From positions 1 to 27,019 of IMG/VR virus record IMGVR_UViG_3300006052_000026: a DNA stretch of 27,019 bases; one strand, 5' to 3'. Under the pieces are notes generated by a model. It searched no databases. It was not told the DNA's origin and saw only the letters and a list, made by a program, of their open reading frames with translations. A program made the position numbers and the translations under genes. The number at the start of each line of letters is the position of its first letter. Positions within the stretch are counted from its first letter, which is position 1. This document shows positions 187 to 23,761 of the stretch, piece after piece. This DNA comes from a virus.

Positions 187-1485
187 TTAAGCGCTAAGTT
201 GAACAACGCAGTTCCAACCTGGAGCACTACAGATCAAATTCCCGTAGTAACCAATGCGGATTTCTAAAGCGTCCGCATTGCCAACGCGCAAACCTTCTAA
301 TCCTTCCATGCCATACGTGAGGATATGCGGCACTTTTCCAAGCGAGCGCAGTTTCCAAGTAGCCATGGTGAGGAGGTAGGCGGTTTGCGGAGGGCAGCTG
401 CGGTCAGCGAGAACCGTAACGCGTCCATAAGCGCTCTGGAAGGTGATACCTTCGAAAGCAACTTCAACCTCGTCGTGGTTGACTTGAACGTACTGAACTT
501 TAGCACCCAAAGCGTTAACCAATGCAGCATAAGACGCGAAATCCATGATGCAAAGATCGGGCTTGCCACCTTCACGATTCAAGAATGCCAATGCGTTGGT
601 CATGCCTTCTTCGATGGTGTAGCTTTGTGCATTGTAGCGGAGACCGGCTAAGCGGGTAGGATCTGCAGAGCGATTAACTCCCCAGAAGTTATCCGAAATC
701 GACGGTGAAGCGGTAGGAATCCAAGCGGCCAATCCAGACAATGCTTGATAAGAAGCAGTGCTAGATGCGCCAGTGGACGGCAAATCGCCAGACACAGTCA
801 AGAAAGCCGAACCCGTTCCGATAGCCCAGTTAGCGCTCAGAGTAGCTGCGGAAGCGGTACCAGACACTACGCCAGTTGCACGGTTAACAGAAGTGATCTG
901 CACGGTGTCAGTCGAGGGAGCGCCGCCGTCAGTAGCCGAAGCAACCAACAACATACCAACTTCGAAAGCAACGATTTGTTGAGCGTTAGAGAGGGGGAGA
1001 ACCGTTCCACCAACAGTTACACCAGCTTGAGTCGATGCTGCAGTCGTAGAACCGCGAGTAGCCGTACCAGAACCGAACAGTTCAAAAGCAATGTTGTTAG
1101 TTAAGTTACGGAAACCACCGTCCATTTGCAGTTTAGCTGCGTCAACGAAGGCGCCAGCATTCGACTTAGTTTGTTCCATCAACAAGTTAGTGATAGTAAC
1201 CAACTGATAGTCTTCGATAACATACACGAAAAAGCTGACAAGTGCCGTAGCGGTTTGTTGGCTTTGTGCGTTAGCGAAGCTATGCGAACGGCCTTGGGGC
1301 GTTCCATACTCGAGGGGGACCGGGATGTATTTACCAGCAAATCCGTCCGGGCTTTCGTTCTTCGGCACAAGTGCCAAAAACGGGTTTTCTTTGTAGACGA
1401 GGTCTTTCATGTACTCTTTATCGTCTGTGTACAATTCTTTCAGCGCTGCAATTTGATTGGCGCTATCAGCATATACTGCTGCCAT
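187..1485 (-). CDS. Major capsid protein
   Basis: This 432-aa protein forms the phage head shell. It is recognised by its sequence type (N-terminal helix with KENPFLALVPK, then GKYIPVPLEYGTPQGRS, a central NNIAFELFGSG and a C-terminal domain ending GYYGNLICSAPGWN) and by its position as the last gene of a terminase, portal, scaffold and capsid series. HK97-type fold is inferred, not shown. Residues about 141-234 are a Gly/Ser/Thr-rich, probably beta-rich insert absent from minimal capsid proteins. The ATG at 1485 has AAAGGA upstream. The gene has its own 103-base leader with two hairpins and is followed by a terminator, which suits a heavily expressed late gene. Confidence 0.88.
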   Translation of the reverse strand: MAAVYADSANQIAALKELYTDDKEYMKDLVYKENPFLALVPKNESPDGFAGKYIPVPLEYGTPQGRSHSFANAQSQQTATALVSFFVYVIEDYQLVTITNLLMEQTKSNAGAFVDAAKLQMDGGFRNLTNNIAFELFGSGTATRGSTTAASTQAGVTVGGTVLPLSNAQQIVAFEVGMLLVASATDGGAPSTDTVQITSVNRATGVVSGTASAATLSANWAIGTGSAFLTVSGDLPSTGASSTASYQALSGLAAWIPTASPSISDNFWGVNRSADPTRLAGLRYNAQSYTIEEGMTNALAFLNREGGKPDLCIMDFASYAALVNALGAKVQYVQVNHDEVEVAFEGITFQSAYGRVTVLADRSCPPQTAYLLTMATWKLRSLGKVPHILTYGMEGLEGLRVGNADALEIRIGYYGNLICSAPGWNCVVQLSA

Positions 1486-9799: not shown

Positions 9800-10264
9800 T
9801 CAAGAGTTTATTTTATTAAGTTTGCCAAATTCCCCATGGTGAGCTAAAGATGCGATATTATAGGCTTTTGCTGCATCTTCTTTAAAAAGATAAAGGCCTA
9901 AGTAAATTCTAATCCCATCTGACATTAAATGCGCCTGCCATTTTTTAGCTTTTTTATGCCAACTGACGCCTTTGTAACCACTTTTAGATCGCCTGCTTAA
10001 TGTCATGTTTTTTTGATTATGTTTACGGCTAACCAACCGCAAATTGCTTTTTCTATTATCTAAAGTGTCACCATTGATGTGGTCTACTTCTAAGTTTTGT
10101 GGAGCATTCATAATTAATCTATGAAGGAATAAACCTGTATTGCTTTTAACGCGCCCGTAGTGTTTATTAGCTTTGGTAAATGTCCATTTATATAGCGCTA
10201 TTTTTTCAAAATCTTCTTTATCGATAAACGCAAACATATTATTAGTTAGTAGCAATTTAATCAT
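9800..10264 (-). CDS. HNH homing-type endonuclease with AP2 domain
   Basis: This 154-aa protein has an HNH nuclease core with FLHRLIMNAP (H48), EVDHINGDTLDNRKSNLR (D61, H62, N64, N70, N74) and a C-terminal AP2-like DNA-binding domain, KSGYKGVSWHKKAKKWQAHL to AYNIASLAHHGEFGKLN (about 94-149). This combination is typical of free-standing phage homing endonucleases. Its ATG overlaps the DNA polymerase stop codon (ATGA), a frequent location because such genes insert beside conserved replication genes. It splits the replication genes from the packaging genes. All expected nuclease residues are present, so it is probably active. Confidence 0.9.
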   Translation of the reverse strand: MIKLLLTNNMFAFIDKEDFEKIALYKWTFTKANKHYGRVKSNTGLFLHRLIMNAPQNLEVDHINGDTLDNRKSNLRLVSRKHNQKNMTLSRRSKSGYKGVSWHKKAKKWQAHLMSDGIRIYLGLYLFKEDAAKAYNIASLAHHGEFGKLNKINS

Positions 10265-12351
10265 TTTGAAAAATTCCTTGTGATTCTGGGAATAGCTTCT
10301 AACGGCACCCCAGGCAATATTGTCGCTGTTTCCATAGCGTTTTGCAATAAAACGCTAATATTTTCCGCGTCTTCTTCATTACATTCGACTATTAATTCAT
10401 CATGAATCTGCGCCACAATAGAAACTGATATGCCCACTTCTTTGCAGTCATTATAAAACTTAATAGTGGCTCTATTAACTATACTTGCTGCAGTAGATTG
10501 AACACGATGATTTGTGGATAAGTTTAATAAACTGCGAGCCTCATAAGGAAGTTCTGAGTGTGTGATGTTTCCATATAAGCGTTCAATTTTAGCCGCGTCA
10601 GGTATGCGCCTGGGTCGGCCAAATAGGTTTACAACTCGACCATTCTTTTTTGCAAATTTATGGCTTTCAATCATAAAATTGGCGACTCCTTGAAATTCCT
10701 CAAAATATGCGTCAATATCCGATTGAGTATCTTCAATGCTTTTTCCTGTAGTCTGCATTAATTGATGTGCCGTTGCTCCGTATACAGACGCCAATGCTAT
10801 TACTTTTGCTAAATCCCTAAGTTTTTTATATTTAACTCCAAAAGCATCTGGACTTCCTTCTTTTTTAAGGGTGCAATCTGTTTTATTATAGACTTTAGCA
10901 CCAATAATAGAATAAAAGTCATCGGAACCATTAAATGCCGCCATAAGATTTGTGTCTTGGCTTAAATAGCTAAATACTCTAGGTTCGAGTTGGCTATAGT
11001 CTGCTCCTACAAAAACTTTACCCGGTCTTGATACAATGCATTCTTTGATACGTTTATCGTCACGAGGGAGGTTTTGCCAGTTGGGTGATCGACTTGAGTA
11101 CCGTCCGCTAGTCGTACCTGTTTGCAAGAAAGAAGGTCTAATGATTCCATATTGGATTTTATCCTCAATGCCTTTTACATAGGTGGTTAGTAGCTTCTTT
11201 TTGCGGGTATATTCAAGGAGTCGTTCTACCCATTTAAGCTTGGGCGCTATCTTAGCTAAGGTCTTTTTGTCAACTTGAATATAGGCCCATGGCTCTTTAA
11301 TAGCGGTAGCATTCTTCTTTTTACCGTTAACTATAGCTGCAGGTTGGAGAACTGCGCCATAAGCTTGGTGGCAGGCAAAAATGAAGTTACGTTTTTCAGT
11401 CTTGGAATAGTGCTTTACCCCTAGGTGTTTAGCAACTATTTTGCCGCCGGAGGTCAACTTGCTGAATTCTAGTTCATATATGCCGAACAATAGCCAAGCC
11501 AGTTGTTGGTTTGAACTGATATTAAAAGTGTCTTTTTTGGACTTACCGGGGTATTTGGCGCTAATTTTGGACCTAATCTCAGCATAAATAAAGTCTCTGG
11601 CCTCTAAGCATTCGGCCTCTAAAGTCTTTTTAAGAGTCGTTAGGGCCTGTTGGTCAACTTTAAGGCCTGTAGTGTTAAGCTGATAGGTTGCTGTGCGAAG
11701 GAGTGGCATTGACTCATCTATGTAAAAGAAGTCTTCAAGGCCTTGGTCATATAGCTCACCAACTAAGACTCCAAAGAGCCTATAGGTTAATAGGGCGTCT
11801 TTTGCGCCATATAAGGCCATTAGCTGACTATCGGCTTTGTACATCTCATAACAGTTTTTGGTGAGTTTACCGCCGTTGGCAATAACTGAGGCCTTCATAG
11901 CAGCGGCTTCTTTATCGGCATCTTGACCAAAGTATTCTTTGCCTAACTCTTTAAGGCCTATACGACGGTTCTCATTAAGAAGGTGGGCCAGTACCATGGT
12001 GTCTGTATGAAGGTCGTCAATAAGGCTAATCTTAAAATAACTCTCAACTATTGAGCAATCAAACACGCCATTGTGCATTACAAGGGACTTGCCCTTAAGA
12101 GAGTTAACTAAATCTAGGATTAAAGCGTCTTTACCTAAAATAGATACTAATCCATCAGCTAGAGTATATTTATGTAATATCACATAAAAGGCTTTATCGT
12201 CTTCGGCACAAAAACTCATACCAATAATCTCAGAAGTGGATAACACTCCTGTAGTTTCAGTGTCAAATGCTATATATTCTTTATCAGCTAAGTAGCTTAT
12301 AAGGTCTTTAATGCCTTGTAGACTGTCTATCACTATCAGATTTGACGACAA
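10261..12351 (-). CDS. polA: DNA polymerase, family A, with 3'-5' exonuclease (TTG start)
   Basis: This 696-aa replicative polymerase has an exonuclease domain with AFDTETTG (Exo I), LVMHNGVFDCS (Exo II) and YGAKD (Exo III). The polymerase domain has TGTTSGRYSSRSPNWQNLP, motif A GADYSQLEPRV, motif B RDLAKVIALASVYG and motif C QIHDELIVE. The motif B residue equivalent to E. coli Phe762 is Leu (codon at 10792-10794). There is no 5' nuclease domain, normal for phage enzymes. An in-frame ATG at 12369 has no ribosome site; the TTG at 12351 has GGAGGTG six bases upstream and is preferred. The 5' end overlaps the primase-helicase gene by 44 bases. Confidence 0.95.
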   Translation of the reverse strand: MSSNLIVIDSLQGIKDLISYLADKEYIAFDTETTGVLSTSEIIGMSFCAEDDKAFYVILHKYTLADGLVSILGKDALILDLVNSLKGKSLVMHNGVFDCSIVESYFKISLIDDLHTDTMVLAHLLNENRRIGLKELGKEYFGQDADKEAAAMKASVIANGGKLTKNCYEMYKADSQLMALYGAKDALLTYRLFGVLVGELYDQGLEDFFYIDESMPLLRTATYQLNTTGLKVDQQALTTLKKTLEAECLEARDFIYAEIRSKISAKYPGKSKKDTFNISSNQQLAWLLFGIYELEFSKLTSGGKIVAKHLGVKHYSKTEKRNFIFACHQAYGAVLQPAAIVNGKKKNATAIKEPWAYIQVDKKTLAKIAPKLKWVERLLEYTRKKKLLTTYVKGIEDKIQYGIIRPSFLQTGTTSGRYSSRSPNWQNLPRDDKRIKECIVSRPGKVFVGADYSQLEPRVFSYLSQDTNLMAAFNGSDDFYSIIGAKVYNKTDCTLKKEGSPDAFGVKYKKLRDLAKVIALASVYGATAHQLMQTTGKSIEDTQSDIDAYFEEFQGVANFMIESHKFAKKNGRVVNLFGRPRRIPDAAKIERLYGNITHSELPYEARSLLNLSTNHRVQSTAASIVNRATIKFYNDCKEVGISVSIVAQIHDELIVECNEEDAENISVLLQNAMETATILPGVPLEAIPRITRNFSK

Positions 12352-14179
12352 TTGGCACCTCCGGCACATCAGTTGACTGATAAGTTACTAAGTCTGTCTT
12401 TCGGTCTTTTTTACGTAAAGCTAAAGCCTGATTAGCAAAATAATTAAAAGAATCTCGCTCATCCTGGGTTATAGGCCTTAGCGTTTCAGTATCTTGGTCA
12501 AATATGAGACGATAGCACTGGTCTTCAATAAGGCGGTCACCTTTGGATTTAGCGCGCACTTTGGCATACTTATAGGCCGTCACCCGTGGGCATGCAGGAT
12601 TGTCATAGCAGCGTTTAAGAGGCTGCCAGGCAACCAACATATAGTCCACATAGGACTCAAAGTTTTGTGTACCATAAGCCGCATCTTTGTGTAGCTCGAG
12701 GTCTCCAATACCCGCTTTTTCACGGTTAGTTTGAGATTGCATGATTAGTAAGGTTTGAGTGACGACAGCAAAAGATTTCATTTGGGCACATACTTCCCTA
12801 AGCCCCTGGTGCTCGCCTGAAGCATCTTTTTGCTTTAATACGCCGATATGGTCAATACAAATACATCCAAGCTTAAGGCCCGTATCTTTTTGGAACTGGA
12901 GCACATAGGTTTGAATCTCAGCTAAGGACAAGTTGCGATAGGAACCATCCTCATTATAGTTAGATAGTATATGGACTTTGGAATGCAAGTTGGTGTTTTT
13001 ACCGCACATTTTAGACCATCTGTGGGCAATTTCACGACCGGGTTGTTCTAAGGATACAAACATGTGCACGTAGTCAGGATTGTGCTCCACAAAACCTTTA
13101 AAGATGTTTAATGCGATAGCCGTTTTACCTACCCCAACACCTGCGCAAAGCCCTAACACCTGGGTGAGGCGAAACCCACCTTCAGAGCCGTCAAAGAACT
13201 CATAACAGGGGAAGCGTTGGCCTTTAAGGTATTCTTGGTCTCCCCGGGACAAAATGTCTAAAACGCTCTCTGAGAGGTTCGTAGCAGCTTTAGGGCCTGC
13301 TTCCTCATAGGTCCAAATCTTATCGGTGATGTTTTCAGCATAGGTTACACGGTGGATAGGGGCGCGGTTAAGGGCCTTAGCGCTGTTGACCAAGACGCTC
13401 ATAGCCTCATCTTTGGTAAAGTCATTAGCATACATAAGGTGCCCTAATCGGTAGTCATCCTTAGAGCGGTCTTCACTAGGGTTGGCCCAAATAGCTTTGG
13501 CCTCCGCGTTGTTTCTAAGCAGCTTACCAAACTTAGCGGGTAAAGTATCGTTAACATTGGTGTTTATGGCGTATGTACGATATGTTTTATCGTAGTGTTG
13601 TTGGCAATATTGCTCATCTGCTGAGGTGAGGGCAGGAAGTAGGCGGTCTAGCTCCTCACAGGTATATTTGGTATCGGTTTCAAAGAGTACTTCACAAGGG
13701 CGTGGATTGTCTTTAAGTTTAGTGTTTAAAGTGTCTGGAGCACGCATAAGCTGAAAGATTTGGCCCACTGCCTCGTCGGTCTTTAAGAGGCGCATTAGGC
13801 GTCTGGTGAGGCGCAGATAGCTTTTGGCGTCTAGGTCTGTAACGGCCCAGTAAACATGCACACCGCCGCCAGAATCGACTATACGGGTGGGTGGGATATT
13901 GATGTCACCAACTGCGGCTATAAAAGCTTCCTTAGAAGGGTAACCACCGCTTTTAAGGTCAAAGTCAACAAAACAAAAATTAAAAGTATCAATCTGAGAG
14001 CCATCTGCTGTAGTGCCCATTTGGTATTGGCTCGGATAGTTTGGAAGATAATAACAGTTGTACCCTTTGGCATTGTACTCCTTTAGCTGTTTGGGAGAAA
14101 ACCGGCCCTCTAGCACCCTACGCGTTGTTGGCTCTAATTCCATAAGCCAGTCAGGGGCGATAAGTCTATAGAGTGTCAA
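12308..14179 (-). CDS. Primase-helicase: AEP/RepB-type primase fused to DnaB-type helicase
   Basis: This 623-aa protein primes and unwinds at the fork. The N-terminal half looks like an archaeo-eukaryotic (PrimPol/RepB-type) primase: catalytic Asp pair in CFVDFDLKSGG (D72, D74), RIVDSGGGVHVYWAV with H108, and FQLMRAPDTLNTK (142-154). The C-terminal half is a RecA-fold DnaB/Twinkle-like helicase: Walker A AGVGVGKTA (346-354), MFVSLEQPGREIA, Walker B LGCICIDHIGVL (D443) and TLLIMQSQTNREK. There is no zinc-binding TOPRIM primase as in T7 gp4. The start is a TTG with GGGAGG four bases upstream. The gene is just upstream of the polymerase, which it overlaps. Confidence 0.88.
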   Translation of the reverse strand: MTLYRLIAPDWLMELEPTTRRVLEGRFSPKQLKEYNAKGYNCYYLPNYPSQYQMGTTADGSQIDTFNFCFVDFDLKSGGYPSKEAFIAAVGDINIPPTRIVDSGGGVHVYWAVTDLDAKSYLRLTRRLMRLLKTDEAVGQIFQLMRAPDTLNTKLKDNPRPCEVLFETDTKYTCEELDRLLPALTSADEQYCQQHYDKTYRTYAINTNVNDTLPAKFGKLLRNNAEAKAIWANPSEDRSKDDYRLGHLMYANDFTKDEAMSVLVNSAKALNRAPIHRVTYAENITDKIWTYEEAGPKAATNLSESVLDILSRGDQEYLKGQRFPCYEFFDGSEGGFRLTQVLGLCAGVGVGKTAIALNIFKGFVEHNPDYVHMFVSLEQPGREIAHRWSKMCGKNTNLHSKVHILSNYNEDGSYRNLSLAEIQTYVLQFQKDTGLKLGCICIDHIGVLKQKDASGEHQGLREVCAQMKSFAVVTQTLLIMQSQTNREKAGIGDLELHKDAAYGTQNFESYVDYMLVAWQPLKRCYDNPACPRVTAYKYAKVRAKSKGDRLIEDQCYRLIFDQDTETLRPITQDERDSFNYFANQALALRKKDRKTDLVTYQSTDVPEVPIVVKSDSDRQSTRH

Positions 14180-21579: not shown

Positions 21580-22026
21580 TTAGAAGTTAATACCTACACT
21601 AACCCCAAAAGTACCATTTGTCAAACCCCAAATACCGCCAGTAATAGGCCCAATGAACTGTTTTGACACGCTGAGGCCGTATAAAGGAGTCAAACCATCT
21701 ACAGGATTAATACCGACTAGTGCCGATAAATTAAGTGTATTGGTCTTAGGCGGAATGACCGTTGCAGATTGGTGCGACACCTGGTCTTTTTGCTGGTCTA
21801 CAACGGTTACCGCCTCTTCGGTTGTTACGGTCGTGACTTCGCCGTCGGGCTTTTTTGTTTCAGTAATAGTCTTTTTAACATCCTTGTTAACCTTTGTATC
21901 AGTATCGGTTTTAACGTCGGTAATGGTCTTAACAGCAGACTGTTGGGAGGTAGCCGAATACCGACCTACCCCGAACGCCACAATCAATGCCACCAAGGCG
22001 CCAATCACTTTATATTGTAGACTCAT
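21580..22026 (-). CDS. Membrane-anchored protein with charged stalk and beta-rich C-terminus
   Basis: This 148-aa protein has an N-terminal membrane segment (VIGALVALIVAFGVGRY, 7-23), then a polar Thr/Lys/Asp/Val-rich stalk (about 30-85), then a Gly-rich beta region (95-148) ending GTFGVSVGINF. A terminal Phe after alternating hydrophobic residues resembles outer-membrane strand signals. It could span the periplasm, and its position just ahead of two small membrane proteins suggests a possible lysis or envelope role. Start and stop overlap neighbours (ATGA with the protease). Confidence 0.6.
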   Translation of the reverse strand: MSLQYKVIGALVALIVAFGVGRYSATSQQSAVKTITDVKTDTDTKVNKDVKKTITETKKPDGEVTTVTTEEAVTVVDQQKDQVSHQSATVIPPKTNTLNLSALVGINPVDGLTPLYGLSVSKQFIGPITGGIWGLTNGTFGVSVGINF

Positions 22027-22511
22027 ATAACCTCATCAATCACACCCATTGCCAGGCACTCATTTGCCGTGAGATAGGTGGTTTCTTTGTGTAATTTAGC
22101 CCAAGTCTTAGCATCTACACGGCTATAGTGCGCCAGAGCACGGTCTGCCTGGTCTTCTAAACGACGCATTTGCTTAGTCTCAATCTCAATCAGGCTGGTG
22201 TTACCGTCAACGCCGCCATTTTCCTCGTGCACCATAAGCCAAGACTCCTCGGTCATAGCCCTACGGTCACCGCATGCCAGGATCAATACCGCAGCGCTGG
22301 CCACGTAGCCATTGCCAACTACTTTAATAAAGCAGGGGCTTTTGCGGATCCTAGCCACATACGCCAAACTGACATACGCATCCCCACCCTCGGAAGTGAG
22401 CTCAATGGTGATGGCCTCTGAAGACTCATCTTCTAAAGCTGATAACTCTTCGGTAAAAGAACCAAAGTTTTTATAGGAAATCTCGCCGATAATATATAGT
22501 TTACGTTTCAC
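22023..22511 (-). CDS. ClpP-like serine protease
   Basis: This 162-aa ClpP/SppA-fold protease has the ClpP triad in order: Ser72 in NGYVASAAVLILACGDRR, His95 in SWLMVHEENGG and Asp159 in GVIDEV, plus the oxyanion-side SEGGDAYVSLAYVARI (40-55). The length is close to a bare ClpP protomer (about 190 residues), slightly short. Phage ClpP-type enzymes usually mature the head and sit beside the capsid gene; this one is in the early-type block 20 kb away. The start is GTG overlapping the previous stop (GTGA). Confidence 0.88.
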   Translation of the reverse strand: MKRKLYIIGEISYKNFGSFTEELSALEDESSEAITIELTSEGGDAYVSLAYVARIRKSPCFIKVVGNGYVASAAVLILACGDRRAMTEESWLMVHEENGGVDGNTSLIEIETKQMRRLEDQADRALAHYSRVDAKTWAKLHKETTYLTANECLAMGVIDEVI

Positions 22512-22675
22512 AACGAACCTACCAATTCAAACATGTGATTAAGTCCGGACAAAGGAAAATCTTTAGCCATAACAAATGAATCAGCCCAAGTTTCTTCTCC
22601 CTCAACCCAAAACTCAACTTTCGTACCTGTAACAATGTAAAGTGTACCCCAATATGCCAAATACAATTTAACCAT
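22508..22675 (-). CDS. 55-aa protein downstream of the structured leader
   Basis: Found by reading the gap: an ATG at 22675 with AGGGAGG four bases upstream opens 55 codons. The sequence begins MVKLYLAYWGTLYIVTGTKV and continues with EFWVEGEETWADSFVMAKDF; it is aromatic-rich and probably a small beta sheet. It overlaps the protease start by four bases. The family is not recognised. Its ribosome site is exactly complementary over eight bases to the loop of the upstream hairpin (22691-22767), so its translation may be controlled. Confidence 0.75.
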   Translation of the reverse strand: MVKLYLAYWGTLYIVTGTKVEFWVEGEETWADSFVMAKDFPLSGLNHMFELVGSL

Positions 22676-22690
22676 AAAACCTCCCTGTTA

Positions 22691-22767
22691 GACGTTAAAA
22701 AGAGGCTCTTAGTACTGAACTGGTGCGGAGGGAGGTGCCAGCGTACTAAGAGCCCAGGTGTAACGTC
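22691..22767 (-). ncRNA. Nested hairpin leader element with anti-Shine-Dalgarno loop
   Basis: Three nested perfect inverted repeats are seen: GACGTTA/TAACGTC (22691-22697 with 22761-22767); a 12-bp GGCTCTTAGTAC/GTACTAAGAGCC (22704-22715 with 22743-22754); and CTGG/CCAG (22720-22723 with 22738-22741). A symmetric 6 by 6 internal loop separates the outer two. In the leftward transcript the 14-base apical loop contains ACCTCCCT (22736-22729), exactly complementary to the AGGGAGGT ribosome site (22686-22679) of the 55-aa gene. No U-run follows, so it is not an intrinsic terminator. It is likely a cis-regulatory RNA; a DNA-level role such as an origin or operator is possible. Confidence 0.65.
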
Positions 22768-22803
22768 AATGTTGCCAATGGAACCCTTAAATCAATCGTC
22801 TCA

Positions 22804-23253
22804 TTAATAGTTATCTTTGTCAACTGAATATAAAGGACAATAATCACTATGTTTTAAACTACCAACTGCACTACACCCACACTCGCATTTCTTAGCAATC
22901 CAGTTGCCAGGAGATTCAGCTTCGAACATATCGCCGTGAATGGAGGCGTAGAGCTCCTCAGCCGTTGGTGGGACATAAGTACCTTGTGCACTAATCGTGC
23001 CAATCCCAGTAGATCCATACCCAATAGATGCTGGCACTCCGGAAGGTAAAGCGGGGACAAAATAAAAACTTAATAGTGGCACGGGCAGTGTAACAGGGTC
23101 GGCGCCAGGTAAAATAATGCTAATGTCTCCGTTGCTAAAAATTTGGTCAACCGTAGTACTTTTTGAAAAACCTATAGACTGCACAATACCGGCTGGGTCC
23201 AGATAATAATAAGTTCGCACACAAAGCAAAATATCGCCAACTTTAATACTCAT
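22804..23253 (-). CDS. Unknown protein with C-terminal Cys-rich motif
   Basis: This 149-aa protein has a beta-rich N-terminal part with a KOW/SH3-like look (SIKVGDILLCVRTYYYLDPA, later GDISIILPG), a Gly/Pro/Ser linker (about 70-100) and a C-terminal KKCECGCSAVGSLKHSDYCP. The C-x-C-G to H-S-x-x-C-P pattern is a likely zinc-binding unit recurrent in small phage proteins. The function is unknown. It starts eight bases after the preceding stop and lies at the head of the leftward block. Confidence 0.65.
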   Translation of the reverse strand: MSIKVGDILLCVRTYYYLDPAGIVQSIGFSKSTTVDQIFSNGDISIILPGADPVTLPVPLLSFYFVPALPSGVPASIGYGSTGIGTISAQGTYVPPTAEELYASIHGDMFEAESPGNWIAKKCECGCSAVGSLKHSDYCPLYSVDKDNY

Positions 23254-23575: not shown

Positions 23576-23761
23576 ATGAAACTCAAAAACGGTTATAAGA
23601 CCTTAAGTTCTAATACTCTTCTAAAGCCCTATAAGACCTTTAACCTAATAGGCATAGTGTTTGTTGATTTTAAAAGAAAACCGAAAAAAGAAAAAGAAGA
23701 CAAAACAATTGTACCAACTTTAAAAATGCTTGTCAACCTTTATTTAAAGAAAGATTTATAA
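23576..23761 (+). CDS. Small basic protein, first gene of the rightward block
   Basis: This 61-aa, Lys-rich protein (KPYKTFNLIGIVFVDFKRKP, then KKEKEDKT) matches no recognised family. There is no ribosome site; the ATG lies at the expected transcription start of the promoter at 23540-23568. The stop codon overlaps the HNH ATG (TAATG). It could be a small nucleic-acid-binding or host-takeover protein, or simply a translated leader. Base composition is clearly AT-richer than in the genes around it. Confidence 0.5.
   Translation: MKLKNGYKTLSSNTLLKPYKTFNLIGIVFVDFKRKPKKEKEDKTIVPTLKMLVNLYLKKDL

Follow-up and report, generated by a model that had tools for sequence, protein, structure and literature searches.

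A probable short RNA gene with anti-Shine-Dalgarno seeds at the head of a DNA-repair operon in an uncultured phage lineage

Small RNAs with an anti-Shine-Dalgarno (anti-SD) sequence are known as stress and nutrient regulators of bacteria. The αr14 RNA NfeR1 is transcribed from its own sigma70 promoter and blocks ribosome sites through redundant CCUCCUCCC seeds, which lie unpaired in hairpins with highly differing stems; RNAs of this family are chromosomal and alphaproteobacterial, and their three hairpins carry the identical CCUCCUCCC motif (PMC10746234). CcsR1-4 are related anti-SD RNAs, four homologues co-transcribed with a DUF1127 gene (PMC10253847). The αR8 RNAs SisA-D of Caulobacter contain a 10-mer with an anti-SD signature and are thought to repress many targets (PMC12559287). 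Among phage regulatory RNAs, OOP, DicF, VpdS, AsxR, AgvB and c4 are described in the available parts of two accounts (PMC12197685; PMC12559287) as short, some of them terminator-like, and as acting by specific antisense, chaperone competition or sponging; unlike the element reported here, they are not described in those parts with a conserved anti-SD motif. A literature search, mostly of openly accessible papers, turned up no anti-SD RNA from a phage.

The DNA analysed (the window, 27,019 nt) is a 27-kb IMG/VR virus record from a phage of an uncultured lineage. It carries genes for a P22-like portal, an SU10-like capsid, a family A DNA polymerase and a DnaB-like helicase, and also encodes UvsX/SbcC/SbcD-like genes. 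On its minus strand a hairpin element lies between a 149-aa ORF and a 55-aa ORF. The latter (22508-22675, minus strand, start at 22675) has no family match and overlaps the ORF of a ClpP-like protease of the head-maturation type (22023-22511, minus strand; Pfam CLP_protease, 7e-22; PHROG head maturation protease, 5e-26). No relatives of the window were found among phage records at the DNA level, and none through the ClpP-like or the 55-aa protein alone. About 30 related uncultured phage contigs were gathered by protein alignments of UvsX-like, ClpP, helicase and SbcD sequences. These have in common, in part or whole, the gene order helicase (divergent), clpP, small ORFs, a spanin-like ORF, g134, uvsX, sbcD and sbcC.

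The hairpin is the strongest inverted repeat of the window. Read on the minus strand, to which all coordinates of the element refer, its layout is GACGTTA-cacctg-GGCTCTTAGTAC-g-CTGG-CACCTCCCTCCGCA-CCAG-ttca-GTACTAAGAGCC-TCTTTTT-AACGTC, then TAACAGGGAGGTTTTATG. The main stem of 12 bp is formed by the 5' arm GGCTCTTAGTAC (22743-22754) and the 3' arm GTACTAAGAGCC (22704-22715). Inside it, an inner 4-bp stem, CTGG/CCAG, seen in the fold (22720-22741; arms 22738-22741 and 22720-22723) closes the apical loop CACCTCCCTCCGCA (22724-22737), which contains two overlapping anti-SD cores (CCTCC). Outer 7-bp arms, GACGTTA (22761-22767) and TAACGTC (22691-22697), extend the structure to 22691-22767. The nested inverted repeats of 7, 12 and 4 bp upstream of the 55-aa gene are exactly those of the original prediction, and the loop does resemble the 16S anti-SD, as it stated. 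Its statement that the hairpin has no U-run and is no terminator was wrong, as TCTTTTT (22697-22703) directly adjoins the 12-bp stem; with UCUUUUU in this position, the window hairpin is built like an intrinsic terminator. The final T of this tail also belongs to the outer 7-bp stem, which would form only in read-through RNA. The relatives likewise have a G+C-rich stem directly followed by a U-rich tail, and several of their tails are weak (ATCTTTA, GTTCTTG, TTTCTAGG), so that termination may be inefficient. The predicted fold of 22640-22810 has an energy of -46.7 kcal/mol (z -1.7 against shuffles); with thermodynamics alone this weak, the significance of the element rests on comparative evidence.

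Within the loop, the 8-mer ACCTCCCT (22729-22736) is the exact complement of AGGGAGGT (22679-22686), the SD of the 55-aa ORF, 42 nt downstream. The original prediction had noted this perfect match to a ribosome site about 40 bases on, correctly, and had proposed from it a loop-to-SD pseudoknot that blocks translation of the 55-aa gene and ClpP. SAM-II and preQ1 riboswitches are SD-sequestering pseudoknot leaders of this kind, in which an upstream loop pairs with the SD; at the present locus the pairing with the own SD is not conserved. In a swap test on 13 loci, the longest complements between each loop and its own SD summed to 61 against 60.8 expected (P 0.53; energy, P 0.37), and within the loop group P was 0.50 for complement length and 0.22 for energy. 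Since pairing with the own SD is no better than between swapped genomes, with no sign that the loop co-varies with it, the pseudoknot is not the conserved function. When the loop and the 45 nt downstream of it were shuffled with their composition kept, only 0.035% of the shuffles gave an 8-nt complement. Loops and SDs of other phages, paired by swapping, also reach 8-9 nt, and the window loop matches the SD of L002 with 8 nt; the match in the window is unremarkable, because a long anti-SD (the CCTCC loop) here meets a good SD. Perfect matches (8 nt in the window, 7 nt in L003 and L007, 6 nt in L002) favour a cis pseudoknot, as does the window's 17-nt linker, which could allow pairing if the outer stem opens. 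Against it, L006, L009 and L011 keep the stem and the CCTCC loop but have poorly matching SDs downstream (AAGGCGG, TTGGAG and AAAGGATG). In L003 the stem of 15-16 bp is joined to the SD by a linker of 4 nt (UUUC), by its geometry too short for the SD to reach the apical loop, and L014, L018, L050 and L053 combine a second promoter-like match (see below) with a loop that lacks CCTCC. Blocking of the next gene through its SD is decidedly unlikely as an account of the element, and the pseudoknot could still form in the window phage alone.

The relatives' long hairpins have no sequence kinship to that of the window, and because stems and loops are too variable to be aligned by sequence, hairpins were scanned for directly in place of a covariance model. 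As nine elements had first been spotted with a loop filter for CTCC/CCTC, the scan was made blind: every hairpin that exceeded a fixed score and had a T-rich tail was collected on both strands and in four dinucleotide shuffles, and CCTCC was scored in the loop or the 5' 25 nt. On the operon strand of 27 loci (357.5 kb), 27 terminator-like hairpins were obtained. Fourteen of them had CCTCC, and 14/14 were the leader element, in the corresponding position in 14 loci of uncultured related phages. Among 20 hairpins on the other strand, the only one with CCTCC was the reverse complement of the L003 element, and the four shuffles together gave 25, again one with CCTCC. When 16 contigs (645 kb) were scanned, 19 of 132 hairpins had CCTCC: 14 leader elements (one each in 14 genomes), one reverse complement and four others. 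The same scan was applied to more distant loci fetched after the first set, whose UvsX match is only 25-29% identical or lacking. CCTCC with a terminator hairpin was present at the same place in three of the eight covering the region (L138, L144, L152), and two more of the eight (L147, L157) have a hairpin with a C-rich loop there. The blind scan and these later loci are the cleaner tests of the element; the P values for CCTCC enrichment and for promoters are flattering, because the loop filter was used and the promoter consensus was learned from the elements.

CCTCC is kept in the loop or the 5' tail of 14 of the 17 elements examined, where less than one was expected, and the anti-SD core is unpaired in minimum-energy folds; a single-stranded anti-SD seed is thus conserved beyond chance. 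At the outer 11 stem positions, 10-11 Watson-Crick pairs are found in 16/17 elements. As this pairing persists while the arms average 29% identity, the stem is kept by compensatory change. Elements such as GGCCGAGGGTAGTAGG-TCCCTCCTCCTG-CCTACTACCCTCGGCC-TTCTTCT (L002), TAGGCTCCTGGCTAG-ACTCCTCCCTCCTAC-CTAGCCAGGAGCCTA-TTTCT (L003), GGCCCCTACAC-loop containing CCTCCTCCTCC-GTGTAGGGGCC-TTCTTTTTT (L007) and AAGCTGTTAGTAGTA-GGACCTCCCCTCCGATCATA-TACTACTAACAGCTT-ATCTTTA (L011) also illustrate the U/C-rich tail, which is kept in the relatives. Other elements have their CCTCC just ahead of the stem, in the 5' tail (CTCCCACCTCCC in L014, TCCCTCCTCTC in L050 and L053, CACCCCTCCAC in L016), and L018 likewise carries it in the 5' tail. 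The motif varies between CCUCCCUCC, CCCUCCUCC, CCCCUCC and CCUCCC, and a C-rich sequence other than CCTCC is found in L017, L044, L073, L147 and L157. The element is absent from six of the loci examined (L004, L010, L032, L143, L153, L154) and so is not essential in every relative. What stands of the candidate new phage riboregulator first proposed is a real, conserved and apparently undescribed phage RNA element, and what falls is the pseudoknot mechanism, which is not conserved.

The hairpin might act only as a leader attenuator or terminator that tunes transcription of the downstream operon, the C-rich loop having no base-pairing role. Hairpin and U-tail do lie just upstream of the first ORF in the group in which clpP comes first, the weak tails fit partial termination, and in L044 and L157 the hairpin persists with a loop that is C-rich but lacks CCTCC. 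However, CCTCC occurs in 0/13 of the other operon-strand terminator-like hairpins of the 27-loci scan and in 4 of about 117 others in the 16 contigs. It moves between loop and 5' tail and yet is kept, unpaired, and termination alone needs neither. The leaders also have no conserved ORF (0-4 ATGs per leader). Attenuation alone is therefore considered rather unlikely.

Promoter-like matches precede most of the elements. In the window the candidate promoter TTGACA-17-GACGAT (22795-22823, minus strand) has a weak -10 and is equalled in score by 53-60% of random windows. Far better promoters are seen in the relatives: they have the form TTGAC(A/T) or TTGCAT, a 17-nt spacer and a -10 often ending in CT, and in most elements the -10 ends 19-32 nt before the stem. 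A median of 3% of random windows were as good (combined P ~3e-13, with a scoring consensus partly learned from these same elements). Judged by sequence, most relatives thus have an own promoter and terminator around the element, and the predicted RNA is mostly 60-100 nt long (range 44-126). The proposed small-RNA gene or leader RNA of the window extends over 22697-22788 (minus strand, ~92 nt); its approximate 5' end is placed from the weak promoter match and its 3' end from the U-tail. Since the own promoter is weak, the window RNA may arise by upstream read-through and processing. A strong promoter-like match, TTGACA-17-TACAAT, its -10 preceded by TG, is located at 23708-23736 (minus strand), ahead of the 72-aa and 149-aa ORFs, and may also drive read-through into the element.

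Eight relatives (L014, L016, L018, L050, L053, L073, L147, L152) have a second promoter-like match that begins 4-12 nt past the stem. The hairpin would therefore close a separate short transcription unit in these phages, and the mRNA could have its start beyond the element. Transcripts beginning downstream had been named at the outset as evidence against the pseudoknot, and the matches after the hairpin in L014, L016, L018, L050 and L053 would allow such starts. The second match is very close to the ORF start in L050 (4306-4348), L053 (4303-4345) and L018 (~2649-2685), and by its nearness the mRNA may be leaderless in these three. Within the second-promoter group, a transcription regulator of the Rrf2 family (Pfam PF02082, E 1e-15 and 3e-13) is encoded a few hundred bases past the element (L050:4804-5241, L016:6162-6596, and by sequence L014:855-1292 and L053:4801-5238). 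In the group with clpP first, the hairpin is followed by the next SD after a few to ~40 nt and no second promoter was seen, so that the RNA would there double as the leader of the mRNA, through partial termination or an upstream start. The phages without a second promoter are the window, L002, L003, L006, L009 and L011.

The element is single-copy in a genome and sits close to the recombination genes and the boundary of divergent transcription. This placement would suit an element that acts at the DNA level, such as a replication origin or primase site, its RNA features being incidental. Such a role is most improbable, as the order of promoter, hairpin and U-tail is strand-directional, CCTCC may fall outside the palindrome, and no DNA sequence is held in common beyond the short core. 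A short RNA gene probably stands at the head of the DNA-repair operon (clpP-uvsX-sbcDC) in this uncultured phage lineage.

Conserved position, compensatory stems, the anti-SD core, the tail and, in most relatives, promoter-like matches were computed; from these we infer transcription, termination, action in trans and targets of the RNA. The reading that we favour, with some reserve, is that of a phage small-RNA gene with anti-SD seeds and its own terminator, which would act in trans and in some phages serve as a leaky operon leader. A host-type promoter would start a short transcript of ~60-100 nt, consisting of a 5' tail and a long G+C-rich hairpin and ending at the U/C-rich tail as an intrinsic terminator. 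Unpaired CCUCC/CCCUCC seeds would be displayed in the apical loop in the window's group and in the 5' tail in others. By analogy with NfeR1, the terminated RNA would pair in trans with GGAGG-type ribosome-binding sites and block initiation. In the window, L002, L003, L006, L009 and L011, which are without the second promoter, some polymerase would read through or start upstream, and the same RNA would then also be the leader of the clpP-uvsX-sbcDC mRNA. The RNA could instead imitate the 16S rRNA 3' end as a decoy, titrating a factor or an SD-bearing RNA (e.g. sponging of host small RNAs) rather than silencing mRNAs. The loop and tail resemble the anti-SD, and phages are known to make RNA sponges, among them AsxR and AgvB (cited in PMC12559287), but the motifs extend to CCCUCC/CCUCCC, beyond the 16S tail. 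Though the present evidence does not separate decoy from silencer, a decoy is given very little credence.

When phage genes were ranked for pairing with the RNA, replication genes were high and the capsid gene lowest. The genes differ still more in their generic pairing with 16S rRNA, so that SD strength explains at least part of the ranking and targeting of replication genes is only a lead. No target gene convincingly common to the phages was found. In the window the best predicted pairing site of the RNA is the DNA polymerase start, with a 10-nt perfect complement, UGGCACCUCC/GGAGGUGCCA (-19.9 kcal/mol); its conservation as a target is unsupported. The DNA polymerase ORF (10261-12369) probably starts at TTG 12351 (SD GGAGGTG) and not at ATG 12369, and it is the TTG 12351 site that has the 10-nt complementarity to the RNA loop. 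The SD of the major capsid gene (window 187-1485, compared with orthologues in G002, G005, G007, G008, G009, G012 and G013) is mostly of the AAAGGA type, not GGAGG, and has the weakest predicted pairing with the RNA among shared genes. AAAGGA-type capsid sites would pair with 16S rRNA and poorly with the RNA. An infection-stage switch can be imagined, in which the RNA silences GGAGG-type sites of host mRNAs and of the phage's replication genes, AAAGGA-type capsid sites are spared and the gene after the RNA, leaderless-looking in some phages, is immune there; we regard it as quite unlikely.

Rfam gave no match at the gathering threshold for the window and none up to E 2 for L039-L043; the only match for L001, to mir-601, was below threshold and did not lie on the element. 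The element resembles the αr14 or 'cuckoo' RNAs in its anti-SD seed, unpaired in hairpins with divergent stems, and in its candidate sigma70-type promoter. In place of an ultraconserved CCUCCUCCC it has a variable C/U motif, and in place of three motif-bearing hairpins one hairpin and a 5' tail. Whereas αr14 and CcsR RNAs are chromosomal, it belongs to phage genomes, heads a recombination operon and in some phages, unlike these RNAs, adjoins the SD of the next gene. SisA-D are chromosomal small-RNA siblings, to which the likeness is the anti-SD signature, by description only. Because there is no Rfam match, the motif and layout differ from αr14 and the sequence features of an anti-SD RNA are present, the element is called a phage-lineage anti-SD RNA, sometimes an operon leader; by analogy, it would work like the cuckoo/αr14 RNAs and is not a member. 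It is probably a phage-made translation regulator comparable to the bacterial anti-SD small RNAs. If so, phages carry their own general-purpose ribosome-site blockers, kept in place across a diverse lineage despite stem turnover, and it becomes testable whether phages use RNA, and not only proteins, to reprogram translation.

In a search for the host, the nearest isolate proteins were <30% identical or absent. One relative was found in a bacterial assembly: L090 (PLNN01000002.1), a phage-like contig binned in a Candidatus Omnitrophota fen MAG, gives a weak host hint only. Another contig opens with AGCAGTGGTATCAACGCAGAGTAC (L005:1-25), which we take to be a SMART-type template-switch primer, and by this resemblance that contig end is probably a library artefact.
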